A stretch of 31,922 bases of DNA. Source: a virus. A program made the translations under genes and the position numbers. The stretch spans positions 1 to 31,922 of the IMG/VR virus record IMGVR_UViG_3300042535_000009; one strand, written 5' to 3'. Under the pieces are notes generated by a model, which saw only the letters and a program-made list of their open reading frames with translations, did not search any database and had not been told where the DNA came from. This document shows positions 22,819 through 31,922 of this stretch, piece after piece (within the stretch, counting starts at the first letter, position 1; each line of letters opens with the position of its first letter).

Positions 22819-22955
22819 TTCTTCTTTTGCTCCATAAAGTTTTTTAATATATTTTTCTTCAAATCATAATAATGAGTAAAGCACAATGGATATTTCATAC
22901 CTAACATCTTGATAATATCAATAGCCTTTTTTTCACACAAAAAACAAGTTTTCAT
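22815..22955 (-). CDS. Small zinc-finger-like protein between terminase and Rossmann-like gene (46 aa)
   Basis: Cys4-x2-Cys7 (CFLC) and Cys25-x2-His28 (CFTH) are spaced for one zinc site. The rest is basic and helical (YYDLKKNILKNFMEQKKK). The ATG overlaps the terminase stop and the stop overlaps the next start, both as ATGA, so it is locked into the packaging operon. It may be a DNA-binding partner in packaging; not recognised in known phages. Confidence 0.6.
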   Translation of the reverse strand: MKTCFLCEKKAIDIIKMLGMKYPLCFTHYYDLKKNILKNFMEQKKK

Positions 22956-24241
22956 AACTTCATCCTTGTATTAATATTGACCGCCTTGACAAACATTCCA
23001 CCTTCGGATTTGTACAACTCGCGTAAAATCGAAGCAAGGCTATCCGGCGCATCAATCAATCCCCCGCCTTCCTGATAATATACAATTTGTTCTAAGTATT
23101 CCGGTTGACAATCATCTGCAAAAAACAAACGGGGCGACAACTTATGAATCCAATGTGTTATTTTATAATGTTTGTTCTCTTTTTCATTGATCGCCCTCGT
23201 CAATGGGAATCTTTTGTTTATTTCACCATGTGACAGTCCATGATCGCCATTCGCTTCACAGTATAGCATAATACAGTTGTATTGACTACATATATCTACA
23301 ATTTTTTGATATAGATTTGTAATGTTTTCACGCCATACGAAGCCCTTAATGGTTATAGTTTTATCAGGATTTTCTTCAAGCAATGTCAAAGCCGTTGTAC
23401 AGTCGCCAGAATAAGCAGGATCCAGATACGCACTACAAGTGAGTTTTTCATCCCATGCCTTGAACTTAGGCTCAATCAACTGATCGCTATCGGCTATATG
23501 CTGTAGTAGATAGTTTGCGGCGTATAGACTATTTCCGTTTGTTTTTCTTAATTCCGCTATGATTTCAGGCGTAAAATCTGGATCATCAACGCTTCCAATC
23601 GGGTATTTTCTCGGCTCCGGTAGTATTGTAAAAGCATCATCTCTATGCCAAGGTGTACCTGTTGCGATTATAGTTCCTCCGACGGTCTTAATATTTGATA
23701 ATTCCCTTATATAATTCTTTGTACTTTCTCTTTCTGCAGGCGAATATCGGTCTTTTTCAGTAACTATATCGTCTATACAAATCTTGTCAAAATGGGCACC
23801 GGTTATATTACCGCCTTTTCCATATGCCTCAATATTGAACTCTTTTGATATCCGGACCTTAGTCGGTAGGTTAATACGCTTTTGATTCCAGTCTGTCAAC
23901 TCAAAAGGGGTATTAAATACCTCGCTATAAATGTATTTCAACTTTTCAGATAGGTAATGTCTGGTAATTTCCTGTAATATACTTATTGCTCCAGTTTCAC
24001 TTTTACGTATAATTGCAATAAGTGTATCCGGAAAGTATAATAACCTCCATATCGTTCCAACTACTAATATCGACGTGGTTTTCTTGCTATTCCTATACGC
24101 CTGTAGAGTTACGTCCGTATCTGAAAGCCAGCATTTTTTAATCCAGTCATTATGATGTTTCATTAATTTATCATAGCCGAGTATATGCCCTAAGATAATA
24201 GGATTTTCCGCTATGTCATCAATAAGGACTTTGTTAATCAA
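22952..24241 (-). CDS. terL: Terminase large subunit (429 aa)
   Basis: The ATPase part has an unusual Walker A-like segment (AYRNSKKTT, about 48-56), Walker B ICIDD (154-158) and the coupling motif ATGTPW (193-198). The nuclease part shows AYLDPAYSGD (271-280, Asp274), YCEANGD (327-333, Glu329) and DAPDS (397-401), the RNase-H-like metal residues. It pumps DNA into the head through the portal and cuts it. Length is typical of compact TerL. It follows the small-subunit candidate with a four-base overlap. The Walker A lacks the usual Gly before Lys-Thr. Confidence 0.92.
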   Translation of the reverse strand: MINKVLIDDIAENPIILGHILGYDKLMKHHNDWIKKCWLSDTDVTLQAYRNSKKTTSILVVGTIWRLLYFPDTLIAIIRKSETGAISILQEITRHYLSEKLKYIYSEVFNTPFELTDWNQKRINLPTKVRISKEFNIEAYGKGGNITGAHFDKICIDDIVTEKDRYSPAERESTKNYIRELSNIKTVGGTIIATGTPWHRDDAFTILPEPRKYPIGSVDDPDFTPEIIAELRKTNGNSLYAANYLLQHIADSDQLIEPKFKAWDEKLTCSAYLDPAYSGDCTTALTLLEENPDKTITIKGFVWRENITNLYQKIVDICSQYNCIMLYCEANGDHGLSHGEINKRFPLTRAINEKENKHYKITHWIHKLSPRLFFADDCQPEYLEQIVYYQEGGGLIDAPDSLASILRELYKSEGGMFVKAVNINTRMKL

Positions 24242-28365: not shown

Positions 28366-28602
28366 TTAGTTGCCGTTGCCGTTGCTGTAGCCGTAGCCGT
28401 AGCCGTAGCCGTTGCCGTTGCCGTAGCCGGAGCCGTTGCCGTTGCCGGAGCCGTTGCCGTAGCCGGAGCCGTTGCCGTAGCCGTCGCCGTAGCCGGAGCC
28501 GTCGCCGTAGCCGTTGCCGTAGCCGTAGCCGTTGCCGTCGCCGGAGCCGTCGCCGTAGCCAACTATACTATTGGCATCTTCGTTTATAAAGCGTTTTTCC
28601 AT
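28366..28602 (-). CDS. Gly-X repeat protein (78 aa)
   Basis: After a short non-repeat start (MEKRFINEDANSIV) the whole protein consists of 32 dipeptides Gly-X, with X = Tyr, Asp, Ser or Asn (one Gly is replaced by Ser). GAGGAATCGGC precedes the ATG, so this frame and not its neighbour is the translated one. Such (GY/GD/GS)n proteins occur in various phages without known function; the chain is probably disordered or forms a flexible Gly/Tyr-rich gel-like part. It overlaps the upstream gene by 19 bases. The composition is unlike any neighbour. Confidence 0.65.
   Translation of the reverse strand: MEKRFINEDANSIVGYGDGSGDGNGYGYGNGYGDGSGYGDGYGNGSGYGNGSGNGNGSGYGNGNGYGYGYGYSNGNGN
28369..28560 (-). 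repeat. 192-base degenerate hexanucleotide tract (GGC-NNC)n
   Basis: The minus strand reads GGC TAC / GGC GAC / GGC TCC / GGC AAC in variable order for 32 units, with almost only GNC or TNC codons. It is strongly GC-rich in an AT-rich region. The unit is six bases, so slippage would change length without changing frame. Long runs of all six frames stay open because of the pattern. Confidence 0.85.
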
Positions 28603-29868: not shown

Positions 29869-29897
29869 AATATACTAAATATTATGTATATTGTCAA
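29869..29897 (-). promoter_or_regulatory. Strong sigma70-type promoter for the 29852-leftward operon
   Basis: On the minus strand TTGACA (29892-29897) and TATATT (29869-29874) are 17 bases apart. Transcription should start near 29862, ten bases before the ATG of the 61-residue gene. It lies only 11 bases beyond the stop of the ParB-like gene, so the island to the right has a separate promoter outside the window or reads through. Confidence 0.8.
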
Positions 29898-29907
29898 TTA
29901 TTATTTT

Positions 29908-30432
29908 CTATATTTCTTCTTGTATTTCCCATGAATCAGAAAATTCTTTATCTTTAAATAAATCTGCTAATCCGGTAATTTGTTTTAGTCGTAATAATTC
30001 ATCTTTATCCATTCCAATATGTCTCATTATCCATCCTTCAGACATTCCCGCTTGAGTTAATTCCATAACAATATTTGACATAAGTTCAATATTATGACTT
30101 CCCCTTGCCCTATTATGTCTAATCGTAGATGCCATTCTATTATCGATATCTTTATCAATAACAACTACAGGTAACATTCCTTTCTCACGTTCAAATATTC
30201 TTTGACTGGTTTTTAATACTGTATATCTATGATAGCCGTCTACAATTTCGTACTTATCTTCATTTTTAAGATAATAGCATACGCATGGCATTGTATAGCC
30301 GTCTTCCCATATAGATATTTCAAGTAACTTCATTTCTGGGGGAGCAACAGAATTTGGGTTATAACTATTTGCTTGAATCTTTTCAATTGGTACCGATAAA
30401 ACATTGTAAACTGGAGATTTAAATTCGCTCAT
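29908..30432 (-). CDS. ParB/Srx-like nuclease-fold protein, IbrB-like (174 aa)
   Basis: The ParB/sulfiredoxin N-domain is visible: VPIEKIQANSYNPNSVAPPE (14-33), VDGYHRY (64-70), VVVIDKD and RHNRARG (105-111). A helical part follows (GWIMRHIGMDKDELLRLKQI), as in ParB. Phage and bacterial proteins of this kind pair with PAPS-reductase/DUF3440 proteins as IbrB with IbrA; in E. coli ibrAB raise expression of eib genes. VDGYHRY is the part that in such proteins may bind nucleotide. It overlaps the methyltransferase stop by ATGA and ends the coupled island. The exact reaction is unknown. Confidence 0.8.
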   Translation of the reverse strand: MSEFKSPVYNVLSVPIEKIQANSYNPNSVAPPEMKLLEISIWEDGYTMPCVCYYLKNEDKYEIVDGYHRYTVLKTSQRIFEREKGMLPVVVIDKDIDNRMASTIRHNRARGSHNIELMSNIVMELTQAGMSEGWIMRHIGMDKDELLRLKQITGLADLFKDKEFSDSWEIQEEI

Positions 30433-30992
30433 ATATTTCCTTTCAATAAAATAATCGGTCTTAAAACATTTTTGTCTAAATGACTAATTCCATATCCTAA
30501 AATTATACTATCTTTTGGCAATTCATAATCTTTACATTTTAGTGTTCTTTTAGAATCTTCTATAGCCAGTTCAATTATTATATTATCGGCAAGTTTTTTT
30601 AGTTCTTCTATCCATTCTTTAATGGAACCAACTACATGATGCAATACTGAAAGTGCTAATACTATATTATAATGCGATGATTGATTTAAATTTTTTATAT
30701 CATTAAGATTTATTTTTTTATTAAATAATGATAATCTCATACATTTATTTTTTTCAATATGAACTTCTCTAATCTTATAATTATTATATTCATAAGCAAT
30801 TATATTGCAATTATTAAAGTCTTCAGTTAATCTTATTCCAAAATAGCACATATTAGCACCAATATCACATACTGAAAATTTATTTTTCTCATAGTTATTT
30901 TTACAGAATTCTTTTATTATATTATATCTATCTTCACAATTTCTTTCTCCCTTTTTTATAAGTTTACCATTAATCCAAATATCTTGATACAT
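30429..30992 (-). CDS. Class I SAM-dependent methyltransferase (187 aa)
   Basis: Motif I is clear, SVCDIGANMCYFGIRL (40-55), followed by an acidic SAM-ribose residue in AYEYN (E68) and motif IV-like NIVLALSVLHHV (109-120). No DNA-methylase signature (DPPY, NPPF, PC) is seen, so a small-molecule, protein or sugar target is more likely than plain DNA-base methylation. It is shorter than average and is embedded between a 46-residue Cys protein (TAATG) and the ParB-like gene (ATGA). The gene is extremely AT-rich, with one line of 60 bases at about 13% GC, which suggests transfer. Confidence 0.82.
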   Translation of the reverse strand: MYQDIWINGKLIKKGERNCEDRYNIIKEFCKNNYEKNKFSVCDIGANMCYFGIRLTEDFNNCNIIAYEYNNYKIREVHIEKNKCMRLSLFNKKINLNDIKNLNQSSHYNIVLALSVLHHVVGSIKEWIEELKKLADNIIIELAIEDSKRTLKCKDYELPKDSIILGYGISHLDKNVLRPIILLKGNI

Positions 30993-31132
30993 TATATTTT
31001 CCTTCCTTGTTTAATATAATTATAATATATTTCACAATTTTTGCAAGTGTTTTTTTTAATACACTTTTTATTTATTATCTTACAAATATTTTCATCTTTA
31101 ATATATATGCTTGTATTTATATAATTTTTCAT
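30992..31132 (-). CDS. Cys-rich 46-residue protein in the island
   Basis: MKNYINTSIYIKDENICKII... holds four Cys at 17, 24, 30 and 33 (C-x6-C-x5-C-x2-C), likely a metal site (zinc or an iron-sulphur cluster), plus many Lys and Tyr. The ATG overlaps the DUF3440 stop (ATGA) and the stop overlaps the methyltransferase start (TAATG), so it is coupled on both sides. The AGGAAGGAAAA ribosome site of the methyltransferase lies inside its end. No known family. It may be a partner of the PAPS-reductase-like enzyme. Confidence 0.6.
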   Translation of the reverse strand: MKNYINTSIYIKDENICKIINKKCIKKNTCKNCEIYYNYIKQGRKI

Positions 31133-31922
31133 TTATCACTCTTTTTTAATTTTTGTAAATTGCGATATTTTTCTAATCCTTTTAACTTTAATATATTTTG
31201 ATCTTTTGTTCTGGCACAACTTAAATAAGTTAAAGTAAAATCATTTTTCATAATGGTAATACACACGGCTTTCCAAGAGGGGCATATTCTAAAATTAGGT
31301 ATTTTAGTATCATCTGGTATACCCGATTTAATTTTTATTATTTCATAAATATCTGGCTTTGTACATAATTTAGATATTGCTTTTGTGTTTTCTATTTCTA
31401 TTCCTTCTGCGATCATTTGCTTTATTACTCTCGGATTTCTACCATACCCTTTTTCTAACCATGTTTTTTGATATCTATCTAAATGATATAATAGTTTTTT
31501 TTTAGTATTTTCAGGTAATGTGCTAATAAGAAAATAAGCATATTCCTTCCATGTAAAATGATCTGGTTTAGTTATTTTTTTCCATCCCATAGCCGATGTT
31601 CCACCATATATACCTCCAAAATTACAGCCATTTACTCTACCTACCATTTTACCCCAACTATGTGGATCTATTATTTTATATAATTTTAAATCGTTTTGAC
31701 CACATTGATGAAACGGACTCGCAACTCTCATTTGATCTATTGTTAATCCCGCCTGATAATATAAATCATATATTTTATTATAATCAAAATTATACTTATA
31801 ATTTACTATCCATATATCTTGAGCTTTCCAGTCATAAATAGGATAAAAATTGCAAGTTAAATTATCAATAACTTTACTATATTTTAATTCTTTGTGCATA
31901 TATTTTCTATGCTGACTTGTAA
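31129..31922 (-). CDS. PAPS-reductase-family protein with DUF3440, IbrA-like, N-terminus cut by window edge
   Basis: The C-terminal DUF3440 part is easily seen: FYPIYDWKAQDIW, then AGLTIDQMRVASPFHQCGQN, DPHSWGKMVGRVNGCNFGGI and YGGTSAMGWKKI. The frame remains open to the window end above the first ATG, so the N-terminal PAPS-reductase ATP pyrophosphatase half with its SGGKDS-type loop must lie outside. Family members (IbrA, distantly DndC) use ATP to activate a substrate, possibly for sulphur transfer. It is the first gene of a coupled four-gene unit with a ParB-like partner. About 264 residues are visible of a usual length near 400. Confidence 0.85.
   Translation of the reverse strand, partial: TSQHRKYMHKELKYSKVIDNLTCNFYPIYDWKAQDIWIVNYKYNFDYNKIYDLYYQAGLTIDQMRVASPFHQCGQNDLKLYKIIDPHSWGKMVGRVNGCNFGGIYGGTSAMGWKKITKPDHFTWKEYAYFLISTLPENTKKKLLYHLDRYQKTWLEKGYGRNPRVIKQMIAEGIEIENTKAISKLCTKPDIYEIIKIKSGIPDDTKIPNFRICPSWKAVCITIMKNDFTLTYLSCARTKDQNILKLKGLEKYRNLQKLKKSDK

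Follow-up and report, generated by a model that had tools for sequence, protein, structure and literature searches.

A methyltransferase gene (MT) enclosed between ibrA and ibrB forms a recurrent phage operon, ibrA-MT-ibrB, and its product, as judged by profile and residue comparisons, is a member of the WbdD family of methyltransferases with the phosphate-methylating type of active site. The window analyzed here is a whole IMG/VR record of 31,922 bases, which encodes Mu-like portal, protease, and major head proteins. The three operon genes lie on its minus strand, at the right end. The N-terminus of IbrA is missing because the record ends inside ibrA (31129..31920, 5' end open), and the remaining C-terminal 263 residues are assigned by Pfam to a PAPS-reductase-like PP-loop ATPase with DUF3440. 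MT (30429..30992) encodes a stand-alone WbdD-type SAM methyltransferase domain of 187 residues, recognized by hmmsearch, residue mapping, and relatives in the same position of other operons. The ibrB gene (29908..30432) encodes 174 residues with a ParB/sulfiredoxin fold and a C-terminal helical domain, according to PHROG, AlphaFold2, Foldseek, and motif alignment. A first-pass annotation of the window had recognized the IbrA-IbrB pair and a methyltransferase between them. The pair identification holds, with matches to DUF3440 at 4.1e-59 and ParB_N at 2e-5 in Pfam and to a ParB-like family at 4.2e-80 in PHROG, and the methyltransferase call is backed by a Pfam methyltransferase domain at 7.5e-6, slightly under the Pfam cut-off.

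The same annotation had described four successive minus-strand frames joined by ATGA, TAATG, and ATGA junctions, all of which are present, and had deduced that the four proteins are made in fixed ratio. The latter does not follow, since 1- or 4-base overlaps occur at no fewer than 11 other minus-strand junctions of the window; stop-start overlaps are thus normal in this phage and do not by themselves mark the four genes out. The G+C content is 26.9% in ibrA, 14.9% in the additional small frame, 22.2% in MT, and 31.6% in ibrB, against 34.0% for the window. The AT-rich island that had been noted is therefore real in the window, but such a composition does not characterize the operon in general: in the relatives L004, L006, L008, and L121 the operon genes have approximately the G+C content of their own surroundings. 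For this reason we rejected base composition as a proof that the island is a cassette. A separate promoter had also been proposed. The TTGACA-17-TATATT site (29869..29897, minus strand) on the downstream side of ibrB, ahead of a 61-residue frame, matches the consensus in 11 of 12 positions, but it is the best of 27 such sites versus 25.8 expected by chance, a number that does not exceed the chance level. A search of the window for RNA elements and tRNA genes yielded none. The phage itself looks isolated in IMG/VR, since its putative large terminase (22952-24241, minus strand), a protein without a Pfam match, found no relative in the scan of viral contigs, and with this TerL query IMG/VR gave no close relatives of the whole phage. 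Elsewhere in the window, a 78-residue frame (28366-28602, minus strand) consists mainly of Gly/Tyr/Asn/Asp/Ser repeats, and a second frame, which overlaps it on that strand, reads as Ala-Thr repeats.

The additional frame (30992..31132, minus strand), which encodes 46 residues with four cysteines and fills an extra spacer between ibrA and MT, is doubtful as a gene on the sequence features considered here. The chance of its 44 internal codons staying open is P = 0.006 under a first-order model; at the same time, it has no codon-position G+C signature, and the in-register antisense frame is open too. A Shine-Dalgarno-like AAGGAAGG precedes the MT start within the end of this frame (31001..31008, minus strand). 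No relative of the frame was found among phage records or among the first 119 loci collected, on which grounds we rejected it as a conserved part of the operon, and in four related lineages MT begins right on the ibrA stop codon, without the 46-codon spacer. No other contig has the four-gene order, an outcome that the first-pass annotation had itself named, alongside the lack of relatives of the 46-residue frame, as refuting its proposal. The three-enzyme reading put forward below would work without this frame.

The three-gene order fared better in the comparison of neighborhoods. The ibrA-MT-ibrB arrangement, with 4-base overlaps on both sides, the kind of overlap also found in the window, is present in six contigs representing four other IMG/VR lineages, and this recurrence with overlaps establishes the methyltransferase as an operon member. 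The ibrA genes of the window and of the MT-carrying lineages form one clade (SH-aLRT 93) that needs a single gain of MT, in a quick tree that leaves the branching order within the clade unresolved. Among close lineages MT has dN of 0.077 versus dS of approximately 2.7, the latter near saturation, a pattern of purifying selection at the sequence level. The phage represented by L121 has a family A DNA polymerase, a D5-like primase, and a terminase unlike that of the window; being a different phage, it indicates that the three genes stayed together across different phages. Of the transferred cassette suggested earlier, the part that stands is that transfer is plausible for ibrA-MT-ibrB, because the phages carrying it differ in terminases and neighbor genes. 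In bacteria, a pattern scan of genomes found no MT, and none of the 80 ibrA loci that came from genomes has MT in this position.

The ibrA-ibrB unit itself is widespread and occurs in phages, bacteria, and Heimdallarchaeum. The pair in E. coli ibrAB and ybdN-ybdM belongs to the same two families in the same order; the window differs from it by the methyltransferase gene between ibrA and ibrB. Scans of viral sequences and a single scan of genomes gave 160 loci once ibrA genes at least 95% identical had been removed; 91 of these loci are viral, and 69 belong to bacterial or archaeal genomes. The two genes are adjacent in 127 loci, and in 31 a gene of approximately 115-185 residues stands between them; as the loci were collected by similarity to the window proteins, these fractions are not unbiased frequencies. 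The space between ibrA and ibrB is a recurrent insertion slot. It is occupied by MT in L004, L006, L008/L120, and L121, by a RecB/Cas4-like nuclease in L002, L003, L009, L021, and L088, and by an ectoine-synthase-like cupin in L086 (5622-6002) and L096 (5612-6004; Pfam 9.7e-42). A family of GNAT-like proteins of 120-157 residues fills it mostly in Clostridia (L188, L192, L195-L199, and L202-L204), and for a few further inserts no family was recognized. The GNAT identity of the 130-residue slot proteins is suggestive at most, the top acetyltransferase match having E = 0.03; a lookalike of these proteins precedes ibrA in 11 other loci. In the open-access literature, where subscription papers may be missed, we found no description of the slot or of a link between MT and the ibr genes. 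Neither PAPS reductase nor IbrB is mentioned in a survey of the ParB-CTPase fold from 2025, which does report ParB-methyltransferase and ParB-acetyltransferase fusions (PMC12704722).

The assignment of MT rests on a full-length match to the methyltransferase domain of WbdD, the O-antigen chain terminator of E. coli O9a (PDB 4azs, 4uw0). With the MT family profile, hmmsearch aligns positions 3-184 with residues 16-211 of 4uw0 at E = 1.2e-11, and the sole plasmid match of the L121 protein is a Klebsiella WbdD gene, at approximately 24% identity. The N-terminal YQ...R.C..R motif, the HH pair, and the C-terminal HL...RP motif are shared. WbdD first adds a phosphate to the terminus of the O-antigen chain and then transfers a methyl group to this phosphate; the Y16F, H132A, H133A, and R203A substitutions abolish methylation (PMC3482155). 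R203, H132, and H133 were assigned to handling of the phosphate nucleophile, because they are lacking in the E. coli O8 enzyme, whose methylation target is a hydroxyl (PMC3482155). All four residues essential for phosphate methylation have counterparts in the window MT: counted along the alignment, a sequence profile at low identity, Y16, H132, H133, and R203 correspond to Y2, H118, H119, and R178, and the pocket residues R31, C33, R36, and H197 to R17, C19, R22, and H171. None of these residues varies among the window MT and the slot MTs, and the position of H119 holds Asn in L124 only, a relative outside the ibr operons. Since the slot MTs are only 46-56% identical to the window protein (54-56% for three relatives, 46% for L121), their residue conservation is informative. 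A modification of DNA or tRNA had been entertained for the island; methylation of their bases is not indicated, because MT is a WbdD-type enzyme whose active site is that of a phosphate methylase.

Outside the ibr operons, all MT relatives examined are accompanied by a kinase-like domain. In WbdD it is fused to the methyltransferase. Three WbdD-type MTs (L122:961-1884, L123:2701-3624, and L124:7995-8921) have a short C-terminal H(G/H)DIRxxN...ID segment, which is kinase-like by motif only and was matched by no family model; the L124 gene is surrounded by a glycosyltransferase-like gene and other methyltransferase genes. In the mycobacteriophages Thibault (gp12-14, in the order kinase-MT-glycosyltransferase) and Tweety (gp102-104), which encode the same phage MT family, a small annotated kinase gene adjoins MT. 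These loci differ from the window in having kinase and glycosyltransferase neighbors, not IbrA and IbrB, and their MTs have lost the pocket residue H171. The window MT also differs from WbdD, in that it is a stand-alone domain with no kinase fused or nearby, has IbrA and IbrB as partners, and is accompanied by no identified glycan genes. A model of the small kinase segments found no match in the window, L004, L006, L120, or L121.

These neighborhoods bear on a rival view, in which MT serves a separate phage function, such as capping of a virion or cell-surface glycan after the manner of the mycobacteriophage gene clusters, and landed in the slot by chance. That other phage MTs of the WbdD family stand with glycosyltransferases, and that the slot accepts unrelated genes, speaks for it; however, neither a glycosyltransferase nor a kinase was identified beside the ibr-type MTs, and MT keeps its ATGA-type junctions on either side in four lineages in which the genes around the operon are different. 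We regard a separate function as rather unlikely.

The catalytic nature of IbrA is suggested by its relatives. The window protein is 64-77% identical to full-length, PP-loop-bearing relatives, and the loop, for which the first-pass annotation had suggested looking as SGGKDS, is found in the form S[CGA]GKDS in 74 of the 75 full-length proteins, which argues for catalysis; an S[CG]GKDS loop is presumably encoded in the part of the window ibrA beyond the record end. By sequence and by fold, with the complete L121 protein modeled at a pLDDT of 89.8, IbrA is nearest to the ATP sulfurylase CysD and then to FAD synthase and PAPS reductase, enzymes whose ligands are ATP or adenylyl compounds and whose targets are sulfate or phosphate groups. 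Across 64 IbrA proteins there is no invariant cysteine and no universal cysteine pair, the best position being C85 (60 of 63). A role as a sulfur carrier is therefore not indicated, sulfur transfer or an Fe-S cluster in IbrA was rejected, and the sulfur modification imagined for the island is not supported.

The IbrA-IbrB pair also invites comparison with DndC-DndB of DNA phosphorothioation, which likewise combine a PP-loop ATPase of the PAPS-reductase group with a ParB-like protein. The pair could accordingly be a Dnd-like system for modification or regulation of nucleic acids, with MT acting on a base or the backbone for counter-defense or host control, an alternative that we consider unlikely. 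It draws on a weak match of IbrA to DndC models (5.6e-8), on a SNF2-type helicase gene adjoining ibrA-ibrB in 65 of the 160 loci (for instance, L043:7495-8718; mostly outside the window clade), on the frequent RecB/Cas4-like nuclease in the slot, on the KorB/Noc-like helical domain kept in IbrB, and on the ParB-like nature of DndB (PMC10853773). But the DndC match is partial, at about residues 150-255, and far under the cut-off (for TIGR03183, a model of 447 positions, 25.8 bits versus 290.4, with only residues 150-229 matched), the invariant cysteine pair is lacking, and the characterized WbdD-type methyltransferase targets a glycan phosphate, not a nucleic acid. Unlike Dnd, the window operon includes a methyltransferase; no DndA, DndD, or DndE was seen beside it, and no DndD or DndE family was recognized among the recurrent neighbors of ibr loci. 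We also rejected a known defense system as an identity for the operon, since for IbrA PADLOC yields weak partial DndC matches only; the same search gave no match for MT or IbrB.

The AlphaFold2 model of IbrB (pLDDT 84.8) retrieves ParB, Noc, and KorB first in Foldseek, followed by SbnI, Srx, and SerK, and it resembles the first three over a longer stretch than it does the kinases. SerK is a ParB-fold serine kinase using ADP (PMC5120207), and SbnI is another, as cited in PMC12704722. With these free-serine kinases IbrB has in common the fold of the N-terminal domain and the DGxHR(Y/W) form of the P-motif, which reads DGYHRY in IbrB, DGVHRY in SbnI, and DGHHRW in SerK; in IbrB (D65-G66-Y67-H68-R69) the D, G, H, and R are each present in 63 of 63 proteins. 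The C-terminal part is different, overall similarity is very low, and the catalytic residue of SerK, Glu30, is not clearly present: it aligns beside N27 with a gap, E33 (62 of 63) lying nearby. Nor does IbrB show the features of the ParB CTPase clamp: it has DGYHR where clamp proteins have GERR (GERRW in Noc), and in the 174-residue model no domain follows the helical part that could be the C-terminal dimerization domain of a clamp.

One could instead see in IbrB a DNA-binding NTP switch and in IbrA its co-activator, in an operon that is mainly gene-regulatory and to which MT is incidental. The similarity of IbrB to ParB, Noc, and KorB would fit, as would the name "immunoglobulin-binding regulator" and the phage records in which IbrB relatives are annotated as co-activators of prophage gene expression. 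We find this improbable, given the PP-loop kept by the IbrA relatives and the P-motif of IbrB, which is that of the kinases, whereas a clamp would have GERR. Since no kinase was found near the ibr MTs and the IbrB motif is of the kinase form, IbrB is a candidate for the phosphate-handling step.

We tentatively propose, at a little under even chances, that the substrate of MT is a phosphate-type oxyanion which IbrA and IbrB make or activate. In this putative scheme IbrA, as a PP-loop ATPase, would activate the oxyanion substrate using ATP, and IbrB, with its NTP-handling ParB/Srx fold, would take the phosphate-handling role that a kinase has for other MT relatives; MT would next O-methylate the resulting phosphate, leaving it capped or masked. 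Candidate substrates are a nucleotide, an end or the backbone of a nucleic acid, and a small molecule. Against such linked chemistry count the lack of a clear counterpart of SerK Glu30 in IbrB and the many loci that have the pair without MT: as these are the majority, MT is an accessory enzyme, and its substrate may be something other than what IbrA and IbrB produce. Further, the nuclease in the same slot fits no simple tailoring scheme. We found no open-access paper that settles the chemistry of IbrA-IbrB, and the MT active site, by pointing to phosphate, would make this chemistry testable through operon-dependent methylated phosphate.

A bolder extension, to which we assign very little probability, is that ibrA-MT-ibrB encodes a counterpart of WbdD with the kinase replaced, which during infection transfers methyl groups to a phosphate in nucleic acid or in nucleotides, the slot being a socket for enzymes with a shared substrate. 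If so, a methyl phosphotriester or a methyl-capped end would be made during infection, and the interchangeable slot enzymes would act on one substrate. To our knowledge, phosphate methylation of nucleic acid or nucleotides has no precedent as a phage modification route. The slot, filled by different enzymes in different lineages, offers a series of experiments made by nature on a pathway that may be a single one.

Several additional genes adjoin the pair. Immediately before ibrA, and often overlapping it, most of these phages encode a protein of approximately 84-98 residues similar to the C-terminal part of DUF3440, as in L002 (5198-5479; Pfam 3.9e-5), in L004 (2862-3119), and at 35 further viral loci. 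Next to ibrA-ibrB, 46 of the 91 viral loci (for instance, L003:2420-2851) encode a protein family of approximately 143 residues that has no convincing Pfam match. Finally, a second protein with a ParB-like start and no Pfam match is encoded in L121 (6089-6694) directly before ibrA, with a 1-base overlap.
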